54,638 bases of DNA from Clostridia bacterium (GTDB taxonomy: Bacteria > Bacillota > Clostridia > Oscillospirales > CAG-272). This document shows, piece after piece, positions 50,252 to 54,301 of the stretch. A program made the position numbers and the translations under genes. A model generated the notes under the pieces. It was not told the DNA's origin, made no database searches, and worked only from the letters and a program-made list of their open reading frames with translations. Numbering within the stretch: position 1 is the first letter of the stretch; every line of letters begins with the position of its first letter. The stretch spans positions 1-54,638 of the forward strand of contig JAGBCA010000038.1 of NCBI GenBank assembly GCA_017938205.1, in the 5' to 3' direction.

Positions 50252-50609
50252 TTATTTGTTTTCTTGCGAAGATTTTGCGGTGTTGAGAGAAGCAATCAGC
50301 ATACGCTTGATTTCTTCGGCTAACGAAAGCAACTTATCAAAATCGTAAACAATTAAATTTGTGCGCTTCAACAAGGTGAGCCAATAAATACTTTCACCCG
50401 TTTCCTTGAGAGAAATATGTAATTTGGAGATAAAATCTGCTTTACTGTTTCCGTAAATCGCCTCATTTATATTCGCACCTACACTGGTAGCGGAACGCAA
50501 TAATTGTTTTGCAATCGTCGTATCCTTTTTGCTCTTTGAAAATTCCTCGTAGAAAAAGCACAATCTGCGTCGCAAAGTCCATAGACTTTTCAAGTAATGG
50601 GCTATTCAT
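50252..50609 (-). pseudogene. Four-helix-bundle (S23-type) protein gene, one-base frameshift
   Basis: The 113-aa open frame beginning at 50593 lacks the family's normal N-terminus. That N-terminus is encoded in another frame from ATG 50609 (GAGAGGTG upstream): MNSPLLEKSMDFATQIVLF. The frame then shifts into YEEFSKSKKDTTIAKQLLRS, followed by TSVGANINEA, the four-helix-bundle hallmark. The shift lies at a run of five T on the minus strand (50557-50553); four T would give one continuous protein of about 118 aa. The promoter TTGATT-17-TATAAT (50661-50633) is intact. It is either a recent mutation, a slippage site or a sequencing error. Homologues are found in rRNA intervening sequences and elsewhere; the role is unknown. 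Confidence 0.8.
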
Positions 50610-50785: not shown

Positions 50786-50818
50786 TACAAAAAGAAAAAG
50801 CCGCTTGCGCGACTTTTC
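50786..50818 (-). terminator. Terminator of the restriction-modification operon
   Basis: Read on the minus strand, AGTCGC and GCGGCT pair around GCAA (one G-T wobble), followed by TTTTTCTTTTT. It is about 75 bases after the specificity gene stop. The rest of the gap 50662-50889 is pyrimidine/purine-biased sequence plus the inverted repeats. Confidence 0.7.
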
Positions 50819-50829
50819 TTTTTGTCAAA

Positions 50830-50845
50830 GGGCTATAAAAAAGAT
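50830..50845. repeat. Outer inverted repeat, left copy
   Basis: GGGCTATAAAAAAGAT is the exact reverse complement of 54257-54272. Confidence 0.75.
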
Positions 50846-50860
50846 GTTTTTGGCGGAGTG

Positions 50861-50880
50861 CTTACGGGATTTGAACTCTC
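50861..50880. repeat. Inner inverted repeat, left copy (tRNA 3'-end-like)
   Basis: CTTACGGGATTTGAACTCTC matches the reverse complement of 54153-54172 at 19 of 20 bases. With the preceding TGGCGGAGTG it resembles the 3' end of a serine-type tRNA gene on the minus strand (TGG, acceptor, GGGATTTGAAC), but the spacing is off by about two bases and no tRNA can be folded. Confidence 0.7.
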
Positions 50881-50889
50881 GCATTCGTT

Positions 50890-51408
50890 CTATGCTTGAT
50901 TATTGAAAGATACATACTCTTGGTATTTTCTTAATACAGCATTTCGCATATAGTTTTCGATCAATAACCAACATGGATTGCCGCTTTCGTCAACAGGAAG
51001 AAATATTTTTTCTCTCGAAATTCTGCTATCGTTAATTTCTCTGTTAAAGTTATATTTTTCTGACAATCTATTAAGCATTGCAGCTACAAACAAATACTGA
51101 TAAGCGCTCAATTTGTCGTTTTTCAAATGCGTAACGTGATCACTTGCCACAAACTCAAACGGCTCATAGAAGCAAGAGCCTACACTTCCACTATTTGCAA
51201 GGCTTAAACAATTATTAAATTTACGTACTCCATCGGCATTTTCGATAAAATTATCAACACCGTTATTAAGTGCAGAGGAAGAAACATAGGGTGTTTCCCC
51301 TGCAATTTGATGCTCTCTAATAAGTCGTTTCCCTCGCTGAACTTCTGAAAAAATATCCTTTACAAAGAACTCACGCCAAGTAACACTTTTAAGATTGGTT
51401 AGGGTTGT
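50890..51408 (-). CDS. Specificity subunit, second target-recognition domain (out of frame)
   Basis: This 172-codon open stretch has no start of its own. It begins TTLTNLKSVTWREFFVKDIF and contains GETPYVSSSALNNGVDNF, NSGSVGSCFYEPFEFVASDH and REKIFLPVDESGNPCW. It parallels the first domain almost motif for motif. At nine G in the tract at 51410-51418 it is cut off by TAA at 51399. One more G, or two fewer, joins it to the first domain and gives a protein of about 350 aa. A GTG at 51150 is in frame but has no plausible ribosome site. Each domain would read one half of a bipartite DNA target. Confidence 0.82.
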   Translation of the reverse strand, partial: TTLTNLKSVTWREFFVKDIFSEVQRGKRLIREHQIAGETPYVSSSALNNGVDNFIENADGVRKFNNCLSLANSGSVGSCFYEPFEFVASDHVTHLKNDKLSAYQYLFVAAMLNRLSEKYNFNREINDSRISREKIFLPVDESGNPCWLLIENYMRNAVLRKYQEYVSFNNQA

Positions 51409-51938
51409 ACCCCCCCCCGAATTTCCAAAATTTTCCTGTTTGCGTATTCGAGGTATTCTTTTCTCTTGATTTCTTCACGCTCTTTGATGAAGGTTTCCAT
51501 AAAGTCGTAGTCAGGTTGCCCGTCATTATCAATTGGAAGCATTATTCTTTGCCTTTTGAGACGTCCGGTACCCATTTTATAACCGTAATTATATTTGTCT
51601 TTTTGTTGAGTGATTTGATTTGTAATAAATAAAGCAACAAATTCGTTACTGTGCCTTTTAAGCTTTAACTTTCTGCAATCATTAGAATACAATGCTTTGT
51701 ACTTATGATAAAAAGAATAACCGACACTTCCATTACGATTAACAGATATAGCGTTTTCCTCAAGTGTTTCGTTAGTGTTTGAAACATAATACTTTATGCC
51801 GTTATTAGATGCTGTTGAAGTTATATATGGAATATCTCCTTCAACTCTCTCAGCATCATATATATCTCGCCCTGACTCAATTTCGCATATATCACATATA
51901 AAAAACGATTTCCATTCTCTATCACTTATCTGTAACAT
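51399..51938 (-). CDS. Specificity subunit, first target-recognition domain (as sequenced)
   Basis: As sequenced it encodes about 179 aa: one target-recognition domain (DREWKSFFICDICEIESG, DIPYITSTASNNGIKYYV, NRNGSVGYSFYHKYKALYS, GRLKRQRIMLPIDNDGQPDY) and one helical spacer (EREEIKRKEYLEYANRKI). It then runs into nine G and stops. Translation probably starts at ATG 51938 with GGAGG eight bases upstream; this overlaps the end of the nuclease-methylase gene by 17 bases, giving tight coupling. In two-subunit type IIB enzymes the B subunit chooses the target. A half subunit could dimerise to read a palindrome, as known for truncated HsdS proteins. Confidence 0.85.
   Translation of the reverse strand: MLQISDREWKSFFICDICEIESGRDIYDAERVEGDIPYITSTASNNGIKYYVSNTNETLEENAISVNRNGSVGYSFYHKYKALYSNDCRKLKLKRHSNEFVALFITNQITQQKDKYNYGYKMGTGRLKRQRIMLPIDNDGQPDYDFMETFIKEREEIKRKEYLEYANRKILEIRGGVQP
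51410..51418 (-). repeat. Poly-G tract of nine in the specificity gene
   Basis: Nine consecutive G on the coding strand, at the exact boundary between the first domain's helical spacer and the second domain. At nine the frame ends in TAA nine bases later; at eight it also stops soon after; at ten or seven it continues through the second domain. It is the longest homopolymer run I noticed inside a gene here. Confidence 0.9.
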
Positions 51939-53847
51939 CTTCATCACCTCCATCAAAGAGATATTTTCTGCCCTGCATAATCATTGAAAATTCAAAAGAA
52001 AGATAATCACCTATTGTTTTATCAAAATCTTCCTCCGTAGGCAACTCATCGTTAAAATAATAGAAGCTATGTAGCCACTCATCCGTGCTTTCAACAGTCG
52101 TTTCAACGCAGAATTTGGTTTCACTTTCTATTTTGTCAAACCAAACATCAAGCAAGTGTTGCTTTTTATCTTTGGCGGATTCCGTTTCAACAAGTCCTAT
52201 ATGGGGAGCAACCTTATAACCATCGTCCTCAAAATTGATAAATTTACATTTTTTGTCGGCGGGGTGCGGCTCTCCGGCGGTAAATATTGCTATACAAGGC
52301 ATTGTACCAACGCCGTAAAACGTGTCCTTGCTAAGCGTTATTACTCCCTCTAAGGTATGGTGCTTATAAATATTTTCCTTTATTGCCTGTTCCTCTTTGG
52401 TTTTTCCCGTCATTGATGACTGAGGAACGATAACAATACATCTTGCGCCCACCGATAACGAATTAAGCAGATGTTCCGTAAATGCCAACTCATACAAATC
52501 GGGATTTTGCTTAGAGCCTTGCGAATACGGCGGATTCATCATACCAACTGTTGATTGTTTTAACTGTAATTTGTTGGGATCTTGCTTTAGAAAATCATCG
52601 TTGATCAAATTGCTCTTGCCATCGCCACGCAAAATCATATTTGTCGTTGCTATGGTAAACATATTAGGGCGAAGCTCTATACCATGGAGTTGGTTGCGGC
52701 GAATACTCTTTTGCTGTGCAGGATCGTCTTTTGCTACGGCGAGCATATTGTGCATTGCCGCAATTAAAAAACCTGCCGTACCACAACAAGGATCAAATAC
52801 AACGTCAGTCTTTTTCAAATCGGCAAGGTCACAAAACAGCTGAGTAATATGCTTTGGCGTTAAAATAATACCAAGAGTTTGTCCATCTCCGCCAGAATAG
52901 CTCATAAACTCTCCGTAAAATCTACCAATGTAGTCCTCGGCAGACCTTGAATATCTGATTGAACGATAGATCGTTTTATTCAAAAATTCCGCAAAATGCT
53001 TTAGTGGTGTTTTGTTCAACTTGGCATCGATTTCATTTAACTTCACGGTGTCCTTAATGAAAGCAAATTGACCTAAAATTTTATCTTTCTTTACCGCAGG
53101 AGAAACATTGGCTCTTTGCAAGTTGCTATTGATCGCATCATAAATCTTTTGACCGTCGGTTTTAATCTGGTCGCCTGTCAAATCCTCAATAGAGAAATTC
53201 TTAAATTCCATTTCTCGAAGTGCAAGCATAATTCCCGATACAATCAGAGGTTTTTCTGTATCAAGCAAATTTCCGTAGTTTCTTAAATCCTCGTGAAGTG
53301 TCGCAGCGTCCTTCAATATTTCAGCGGTTTCTTTTTCGGCATCGGTACTTTCCTTCAATATTTCTCTGATATAATACTCATCTATATTATCTTCATTGAA
53401 GGAAATAAATGATTGCACCTCGGGTAATTCGCGGTAGTATTCTGTTTCATCTACATAAATTGGGCTGATTTTATGCTTTTTCTGATCCCCTGATACACCG
53501 AAGGCAATCACTTTTTTATAGCTTGTATTTTTCACAAGGTGCTTGGCGTAGAATAAAGCTCCGTTAACGGCGTAATCGGTAATATCACTTGTTTTCATAG
53601 AAACAAGCCCCTTGCCATCAAACTTTATATGATGCGACAAATCCGCTTTATCCTCAATAACGAGCAAATAATCCTTTACCACACCGACATACTCGGGGAA
53701 TCCTGCTTTTCCGGTACCTCTCTTCGATGCGGTCCTTAAGGCATCGTTGAGTTCTTTTATTGTACTACCTTGCGGGTCAAGGTGTATATCTGCTTCGTTT
53801 AGAAGCGTAAAAACCCACAAATCAGTTCTAACTTCTTTTTTAGCCAT
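51922..53847 (-). CDS. BcgI-like type IIB restriction-modification A subunit (nuclease + N6-adenine methylase)
   Basis: A 641-aa fusion. The N-terminal PD-(D/E)XK nuclease motif is Pro51-Glu52 ... Glu65-Asp66-Lys67 (FPEYVGVVKDYLLVIEDKAD). A helical linker follows (about 150-330). The N6-adenine methylase has motif I DPCCGTAGF (352-360) for AdoMet and motif IV NPPY (438-441) for catalysis. No separate HsdR gene or helicase motor is present. The size and fusion match BcgI subunit A, about 637 aa, which pairs with a two-domain B subunit of about 341 aa. A type IIB enzyme methylates its site and cuts on both sides. AAGGAG precedes the ATG, which overlaps the ribbon-helix-helix gene by eight bases. 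Confidence 0.85.
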   Translation of the reverse strand: MAKKEVRTDLWVFTLLNEADIHLDPQGSTIKELNDALRTASKRGTGKAGFPEYVGVVKDYLLVIEDKADLSHHIKFDGKGLVSMKTSDITDYAVNGALFYAKHLVKNTSYKKVIAFGVSGDQKKHKISPIYVDETEYYRELPEVQSFISFNEDNIDEYYIREILKESTDAEKETAEILKDAATLHEDLRNYGNLLDTEKPLIVSGIMLALREMEFKNFSIEDLTGDQIKTDGQKIYDAINSNLQRANVSPAVKKDKILGQFAFIKDTVKLNEIDAKLNKTPLKHFAEFLNKTIYRSIRYSRSAEDYIGRFYGEFMSYSGGDGQTLGIILTPKHITQLFCDLADLKKTDVVFDPCCGTAGFLIAAMHNMLAVAKDDPAQQKSIRRNQLHGIELRPNMFTIATTNMILRGDGKSNLINDDFLKQDPNKLQLKQSTVGMMNPPYSQGSKQNPDLYELAFTEHLLNSLSVGARCIVIVPQSSMTGKTKEEQAIKENIYKHHTLEGVITLSKDTFYGVGTMPCIAIFTAGEPHPADKKCKFINFEDDGYKVAPHIGLVETESAKDKKQHLLDVWFDKIESETKFCVETTVESTDEWLHSFYYFNDELPTEEDFDKTIGDYLSFEFSMIMQGRKYLFDGGDEDVTDK

Positions 53848-54022
53848 TGTTTTTCTCCTTCAAATCCTTTGCGAGTATTTCAGTCAAATACTGATTAACG
53901 CTATATCCGCGTTCTTCTTTTTTTCTTTCATGTATTAGTTCCATCATTTGCTCATAAAGCTCGGGCGGCAGTCGCAAAGGAATCGGAATTTTTTGCTTTG
54001 TCGGGGTTTTTGATTTATTCAC
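53840..54022 (-). CDS. Small ribbon-helix-helix DNA-binding protein (likely controller)
   Basis: A 60-aa Arc-type protein. IPIPLRLPPELYEQMMELI gives the beta strand and first helix; GYSVNQYLTEILAKDL gives the second. The gene starts with GTG at 54022, with GGAGG seven bases upstream, and overlaps the A-subunit gene by eight bases, so all three genes form one operon. Its promoter carries two TGATATCA palindromes. RHH proteins commonly autoregulate through such sites, so it is probably a control protein that times expression of the system; this is inferred. Confidence 0.75.
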   Translation of the reverse strand: MNKSKTPTKQKIPIPLRLPPELYEQMMELIHERKKEERGYSVNQYLTEILAKDLKEKNNG

Positions 54023-54038
54023 CTTCCTACCTCCATTT

Positions 54039-54090
54039 TGATATCATAATATCTTGATACTATGATATCATATAAGGAAGAAAATGTCAA
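54039..54090 (-). promoter_or_regulatory. Promoter and repeated palindromic operator of the RM operon
   Basis: On the minus strand TTGACA (54090-54085), 17 bases, TATCAT (54067-54062). TATGATATCATA (54061-54072) is a perfect palindrome covering the -10. A second TGATATCA lies at 54039-54046, 24 bases away, with TGATA-type half-sites between. These are good candidate sites for the RHH protein. Confidence 0.72.
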
Positions 54091-54152: not shown

Positions 54153-54172
54153 GGGAGTTCAAATCCCGTAAG
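54153..54172. repeat. Inner inverted repeat, right copy
   Basis: GGGAGTTCAAATCCCGTAAG is the inverted partner of 50861-50880. It looks like a tRNA T-arm (GTTCAAATC) with no rest of a tRNA around it. Confidence 0.7.
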
Positions 54173-54183
54173 TGTTTAATATC

Positions 54184-54209
54184 TTTTTCTCGTGACTATG
54201 CGAGAAAAG
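54184..54209. repeat. Hairpin
   Basis: TTTTCTCG pairs with CGAGAAAA around TGACTATG. No role assigned. Confidence 0.5.
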
Positions 54210-54222
54210 GATAGAAAAACAA

Positions 54223-54247
54223 AAAAGCCTTGAAAATCAAGGCTTTT
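54223..54247. terminator. Terminator-like hairpin
   Basis: AAAAGCCTTGA pairs perfectly with TCAAGGCTTTT around AAA. There is no nearby gene on the plus strand, so it may close off read-through into the RM locus. Confidence 0.65.
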
Positions 54248-54256
54248 CGCGGCTAT

Positions 54257-54272
54257 ATCTTTTTTATAGCCC
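54257..54272. repeat. Outer inverted repeat, right copy
   Basis: ATCTTTTTTATAGCCC is the exact reverse complement of 50830-50845. It also folds with GGCTATA just upstream. Confidence 0.75.
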
Positions 54273-54278
54273 TTTTTT

Positions 54279-54301
54279 GGTTGCGGGGGCGGGATTTGAA
54301 A
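54279..54301 (-). other. tRNA 3'-end fragment (Met/Ile-like)
   Basis: TGGTTGCGGGGGCGGGATTTGAA begins at 54278, just before a change to unrelated sequence. Read on the minus strand it is a T-loop, T-stem, acceptor strand and CCA, as at the 3' end of a methionine-type tRNA. The rest of the tRNA is missing. Confidence 0.55.

Follow-up and report, generated by a model that had tools for sequence, protein, structure and literature searches.

Among the described counterparts of the system considered here, a BcgI-like restriction-modification system with a nine-G tract in its specificity (S) gene, the closest is HpyUM032XIII of Helicobacter pylori UM032. The system under study lies in a 54,638-nucleotide stretch of Clostridia bacterium DNA (contig JAGBCA010000038.1), and this whole stretch is referred to as the window. 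As far as the passages drawn on here describe it, HpyUM032XIII is a BcgI-like system in which a nuclease-methylase fusion (RM) is accompanied by S1 and S2, split by a G12 tract (a run of twelve G). RM with S1 alone methylates CYAN7TRG, a palindrome, S2 alone is inactive, and an artificially fused S1-S2 reads the asymmetric CYAN7TTC, these specificities having been shown in Escherichia coli (PMC4450513). The window shares with it the RM fusion and the interruption of S by a G tract that separates the first and second target recognition domains (TRD1 and TRD2). The two differ in that HpyUM032XIII has an H. pylori host, a G12 tract and a tested function, whereas the system in the window has a clostridial host and a G9 tract and is described from sequence.

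Further precedents are available, again as described in parts of the cited papers. HP1471/HP1472 and JHP1364/JHP1365 (Hpy99XXII) of H. pylori are BcgI-like, have an S gene containing a repeat of 13 or 14 G, and are described as prone to phase variation (PMC3936762). They resemble the window in combining a BcgI-like RM with a G tract in S, but the off phase there is described as blocking full translation, and half-S activity is not described in the section concerned (PMC3936762). In the type I system NgoAV of Neisseria gonorrhoeae, a G tract in the S gene yields truncated or full S with different recognition sequences (PMC6789123); its R, M and S subunits are separate, unlike the RM fusion of the window. 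For the type IIB enzyme BsaXI, built on an (RM)2S plan, TRD1-only S variants recognise the palindrome AC N5 GT (PMC9159934, PMC11997821). Those variants were engineered, the BsaXI RM is longer and has a paddle domain, and the relevant passages report no tract. In Ca. Mycoplasma girerdii UC-B3, two-base repeats located inside HsdS genes or close to them vary in length within one population (PMC5476646); that system is type I, and the passages on it do not say that these repeats lie at a TRD joint. The mechanism is thus known from the BcgI-like systems of H. pylori and from the type I system NgoAV. An earlier note on this DNA was aware of no type IIB (BcgI-like) example in Clostridia; novelty of the mechanism itself does not hold, since HpyUM032XIII has the same layout and HP1471 and JHP1364 are described as G-tract S genes of BcgI-like systems. 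A literature search on restriction and phase variation, which covered titles, the openings of abstracts and selected passages among the hits listed, excluded subscription papers and REBASE and is no proof of absence, found no clostridial BcgI-like example; within the same scope, wide recurrence, AG or TA tracts at the joint and arrays with two such joints were not found either, and HpyUM032XIII was named in one paper only.

The central features of the locus are as follows.

51922..53847, minus strand: RM, a nuclease-N6-adenine methylase fusion of 641 aa, intact open reading frame (ORF)
51399..51938, minus strand: S as read, a half subunit of 179 aa with TRD1 (Methylase_S, E 8.7e-25; PADLOC Specificity_II, E 1.6e-41)
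51410..51418, minus strand: nine-G tract at the TRD1-TRD2 joint, seen in the sequence itself, the sole G/C run of at least seven in the window
50890..51390, minus strand: TRD2, the silent second half of S in a different frame (Methylase_S, E 9.4e-16)

The RM protein is a nearly full-length match to PADLOC REase_MTase_IIG PDLC03602 (E 4.5e-171), and its methylase part matches Pfam N6_Mtase (E 7.6e-33). No nuclease model was matched in the Pfam scan of RM, and the nuclease part, which we take to be of the PD-(D/E)XK type, is supported by the PADLOC match together with conserved residues. In an alignment of 95 relatives, P51, E65 and K67 are invariant (94/94 residues each), as is the methylase motif N438-P-P-Y441 (95/95). 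Nuclease and N6-adenine methylase thus stand on a single chain, beside a distinct S gene with two TRDs that are in two frames as read, which is the composition of a BcgI-like system. S starts with an ATG at 51938 on the minus strand, overlapping RM by 17 nt, and is closed at 179 aa by a stop codon (51399-51401) after the G tract. The TRD2 frame is stop-free to 50890, with 166 codons open; it extends back across the tract and contains no ATG, GTG or TTG before 51150. TRD1 and TRD2 share 28% identity (E 1e-28) and are paralogous halves, in two frames, flanking a repeat tract that shifts the second out of frame, as is expected of a phase-variable S gene. The earlier note had described a 641-aa fusion overlapping the specificity gene, a half subunit of about 179 aa at nine G and a second frame open up to 50890; its coordinates and counts all hold, and translation and the Methylase_S match bear them out.

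From this arrangement and from its recurrence in relatives, DNA slippage in the joint tract probably toggles S between two forms, each reading another target. At nine G, S stops just past TRD1 and its conserved C-terminal stretch, and two such half subunits with two RM subunits would recognise a palindromic bipartite site. In the other tract phase (ten or seven G), TRD1 and TRD2 would form one chain of about 350 aa reading an asymmetric bipartite site. The ability of the half S to pair is suggested by published half S subunits, and the two-specificity model follows the close precedent of HpyUM032XIII; we infer that tract length would vary within the population, that both forms would be active and that the specificities would be two. 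It is plausible that protection and attack stay in step at steady state; this is weaker for the moment of switching, when new sites are still unmethylated.

By itself the tract is weak evidence, because the G8 count of the window was equalled or exceeded in 17 of 100 shuffles that kept its dinucleotides. The sequence GGGGGGGGG is present at two sites in the 2,355,949-base assembly, the S joint and an intergenic site on contig C3, and six runs of at least eight G or C occur assembly-wide. The weight of the case lies instead in the recurrence of tracts at the same joint in relatives. These were collected from a scan of species genomes (91 confirmed RM relatives, of which the best 80 were kept) and from the genus (69 genomes), family (395) and order (394) of the window's genome. 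A further 298 genomes came from the order of the genome of L018, in which only matches with locus identifiers were examined; they are called the Campylobacterales sample because L018 is titled Arcobacter and the genome that holds L027, titled Campylobacterales, belongs to that group too. Viral contigs provided three relatives (L102, L103, L104) and plasmids 20 records, three of them used; among the 20 plasmid and 10 phage records matched, five were read (L160, L161, L162, L171, L172). TRDs were located in 123 oriented loci by a profile built from the half units of 53 uninterrupted S proteins, and RM and S were scanned for tracts, defined as a G/C run of at least seven or a dinucleotide repeat of at least six units. 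Left out before counting were L104 (partial RM), L113 and L114 (split RM), L120-L122 (no match), L115-L118 (the same places as L013, L018, L039 and L027) and the phage stretches L171 and L172. Removal of four exact duplicates from the 123 loci leaves the 119 distinct loci to which the counts refer.

TRD-TRD joints make up 3.8% of the scanned sequence and hold 21 of the 23 tracts (16 at the first joint, five at the second), spread over 19 of the 119 loci; the two tracts elsewhere lie in the RM of L031 and in a third-TRD remnant of L151. The enrichment is specific to long runs and depends on length: joints hold 51/678 G/C runs of at least four, 23/42 at a threshold of six and 21/23 at a threshold of seven, and 6/70 A/T runs of at least eight. 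The individual joints are as follows.

First joint, S cut: G9 (window), G9 (L028), G7 (L026), G15 (L034), G11 (L150), G9 (L152), G8 (L155), G13 (L157 and L158), (AG)12 (L013), (AG)7 (L063)
First joint, open: G8 (L002), G10 (L021), G8 (L156); in frame: G9 (L147 and L159)
Second joint, S cut: (TA)12 (L054), (AT)12 (L057)
Second joint, open: G10 (L150), G11 (L152); in frame: G8 (L151)

Of these joints, eight keep the reading frame and 13 break it. Both TRDs are open across six of the eight in-frame joints, the exceptions being L159 and L151, and the next TRD is open at 11 of the 13 out-of-frame joints under translation table 11, with L063 as a twelfth under table 25. Tract length and phase therefore differ at the same place among relatives, across species only (G7-G15; AG, TA), and the comparison of G counts at the joint that the earlier note had called for has thus given G7-G15. 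By their record titles, the loci with a joint tract belong to Lachnospiraceae, Peptoniphilus, Tissierellia, Alphaproteobacteria, Anaerolineales and Campylobacterales, and one lies in a bacterium that reads TGA as glycine (L063). In the RM of this last locus, 28 of the 32 TGA codons are aligned to a glycine of the window RM, and RM, first TRD and second TRD are all open under table 25. The L063 genome reads TGA as glycine (table 25), and its methylase motif is NPSY, not NPPY. Two loci of the Campylobacterales sample, L150 (G11/G10) and L152 (G9/G11), have three TRDs behind RM and a G tract at both joints. L054, L055 and L057 likewise have three TRDs, and their second joint carries a TA repeat; the repeat has 12 units and is out of frame in L054 and L057, and has five units and is in frame in L055. 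Nearer to the window, two genomes of its family have an RM identical over the first 1500 nt to two clostridial loci (Oscillospiraceae bacterium SIG674 and Clostridia bacterium RGIG4652), which supports the clostridial setting proposed in the earlier note.

Several observations weigh against the switch. Within this genome it is based on one assembly, which shows a single tract length and has the tract close to the end of a contig. For a contingency locus, nine G is a short tract, and the shuffles reach the G8 count of the window. The binomial figure for the joint enrichment, about 3e-28, treats the loci as independent, which is not wholly true. A joint tract is carried by 13 of the 98 distinct relatives with an RM at least 50% identical and the rest lack one, so that the tract is not a fixed feature; in the congener locus L083 (RM 63% identical to that of the window), S is uninterrupted and tract-free. 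The earlier note had named as telling against its reading a fixed stop in homologues that lack a tract, and such cases exist in part: S is split without a tract in L031, L036 and L072, while most relatives have an uninterrupted S with two TRDs. Moreover, some tracts lie in damaged S genes, with a stop in TRD2 in L034, a stop in TRD1 in L159 and several stops in the third TRD of L151.

The tract-free splits and the damaged genes favour the view that S is merely frameshifted, either a fixed half-S or a dying system in which TRD2 is a relic and nothing switches. The same view draws on natural single-TRD forms, since 8 of the 80 loci carry RM fusions with one TRD in frame (L005, L025, L039, L043, L047, L066, L071, L072); these suggest that one TRD can suffice, which also counts in favour of a working half S in the switch. 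It is nevertheless unlikely, because TRD2 is open over its 166 codons with a clear Pfam match and a frame that reaches across the tract, the next TRD is open at 12 of 13 out-of-frame joints, and a random frameshift need not hit a G tract precisely at the joint. Decay predicts an accumulation of stops, just as selection for a glycine-rich linker predicts in-frame joints, and neither suits the whole set well. Such a linker, selected at the protein level, was rejected because 13 of the 21 joints break the frame and the AG tracts are translated as Arg-Glu. That nine G is a miscount made in sequencing or assembly, S being a fixed two-TRD protein as in most relatives, appears quite improbable: homopolymers are error-prone and the assembly is a draft (73 contigs, 84% completeness), but the same kind of tract cuts other assemblies, two-base repeats included, where single-base errors are less expected, and a ten-G tract at the joint, if correct, could slip too. 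Finally, homopolymers can in principle cause slippage of RNA polymerase or the ribosome, so that half and full S would be made together from one DNA sequence, and the want of a start codon near the beginning of TRD2 would suit this; it is very improbable indeed, given that RNA structure at the joint is unremarkable (z -0.82), with nothing notable downstream, and that the two-base joint repeats of L013, L063, L054 and L057 are more in keeping with slippage of DNA. The earlier note's proposal of a BcgI-like system whose S can slip is well supported by the comparison with relatives.

The history of the tracts was assessed on a quickly built RM tree with 95 rows, 12 of which bear the tract label; 28 of the 123 loci were left out, among them L063, in which TGA had been taken as a stop codon. 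The label needs at least nine changes, of which well-supported branches force eight, gains and losses being indistinguishable. As few changes were reached in 6 of 500 label shuffles, so that the label is somewhat clustered on the tree; in the smallest well-supported set with the window, 4 of 9 rows have a tract. That the joint tracts differ in their repeat unit speaks for several origins. On balance, slippable TRD joints seem to be a recurrent, convergent device of BcgI-like systems in several phyla, using G, AG or TA, with L150 and L152, whose three TRDs are joined by two independent G tracts, as a possible serial switch. Such a switch could produce S chains of one to three TRDs, and hence several restriction specificities per locus.

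Other features of the relatives deserve mention. In L072, a second TRD follows the single-TRD fusion in another frame. The phage and plasmid S genes of L160, L161, L162, L171 and L172 contain no G/C run of at least six, and the viral-contig loci L102 and L103 have a full S and no run of at least seven. L031 has ten G in a row close to where its RM gene starts (L031:4172); this sole long G run inside any RM gene of the set is possibly an on/off tract. Further, a run of A9 or A10 occurs at the RM/S seam of the RM-S fusions L032, L037, L040, L041, L042, L045 and L046, and likewise of L048, L068, L072, L073, L080 and L081; such runs may be merely lysine codons or a slippage site.

RM and S form part of a cassette, whose remaining features are the following.

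53840..54022, minus strand: ORF of 60 aa, a possible Arc-like regulator, overlapping the RM start by 8 nt
54062..54090, minus strand: promoter-like site TTGACA-17-TATCAT (11/12 consensus bases)
54039..54070, minus strand: palindrome TGATATCATA-N12-TATGATATCA, a possible operator overlapping the -10 box, found in the window and L185 and near-identical in L079
50795..50818, minus strand: terminator-like hairpin behind S (seven such sites found, 3.2 expected)
50827..50878, plus strand: left cassette end with two inverted-repeat arms (50827-50845 and 50861-50878)
54155..54275, minus strand: right cassette end with the partner arms (54155-54172 and 54257-54275)

On the minus strand the order is promoter-like site, 60-aa ORF, RM, S and terminator-like hairpin. 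The promoter-like site is the best of 11 found, with 11.6 expected by chance and thus no excess. The congener locus L083 has a 95% identical 60-aa product encoded before its RM, though that RM is only 63% identical, and in L079 and L107 the identity is 73%; the product of the window has weak PHROG matches (Arc-like repressor, E 0.032) and no Pfam match above the cut-off. With the conserved palindrome over the promoter, it is a candidate controller. L105, L108 and L109 have other small ORFs at the same place before RM.

The cassette ends are exact inverted repeats, 50827-50845 being 100% complementary to 54257-54275 (19 nt) and 50861-50878 to 54155-54172 (18 nt), and GAGTTCAAATCCCGTAAG is found only at the two cassette ends in the whole assembly, one mismatch allowed. 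The same inverted-repeat pair is present in L185, where positions 50816-50883 of the window are 90% identical; the end regions 50816-50883 and 54155-54297 correspond to ends that frame this related congener cassette. Outside the cassettes, window and congener share short stretches only, those nearest the ends being 86 nt at 77% and 34 nt at 85%. The G+C content is 37.7% in the cassette and 49.7% in the window. The shared ends suggest a mobile unit without a recognisable transposase, and mobility of the cassette is likely. No tRNA genes lie near the cassette, and a search for the right flank in relatives gave mostly short dispersed matches. Just outside the left end, 50252-50593 holds a gene for a 23S rRNA-intervening-sequence-type protein (PF05635, E 2.3e-21).

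Since a single chain holds both nuclease and methylase and a single S serves them, any change in S alters cutting and methylation together. Should the tract slip, cells descended from a single gut bacterium would differ in their restriction targets and methylation marks, which would diversify phage defence and perhaps gene expression too. This poses the question of how a cell survives the switch while its new sites still lack methylation, for which the 19 of 119 loci that carry joint tracts, including two that have three TRDs and two slippable joints, would serve as natural systems.

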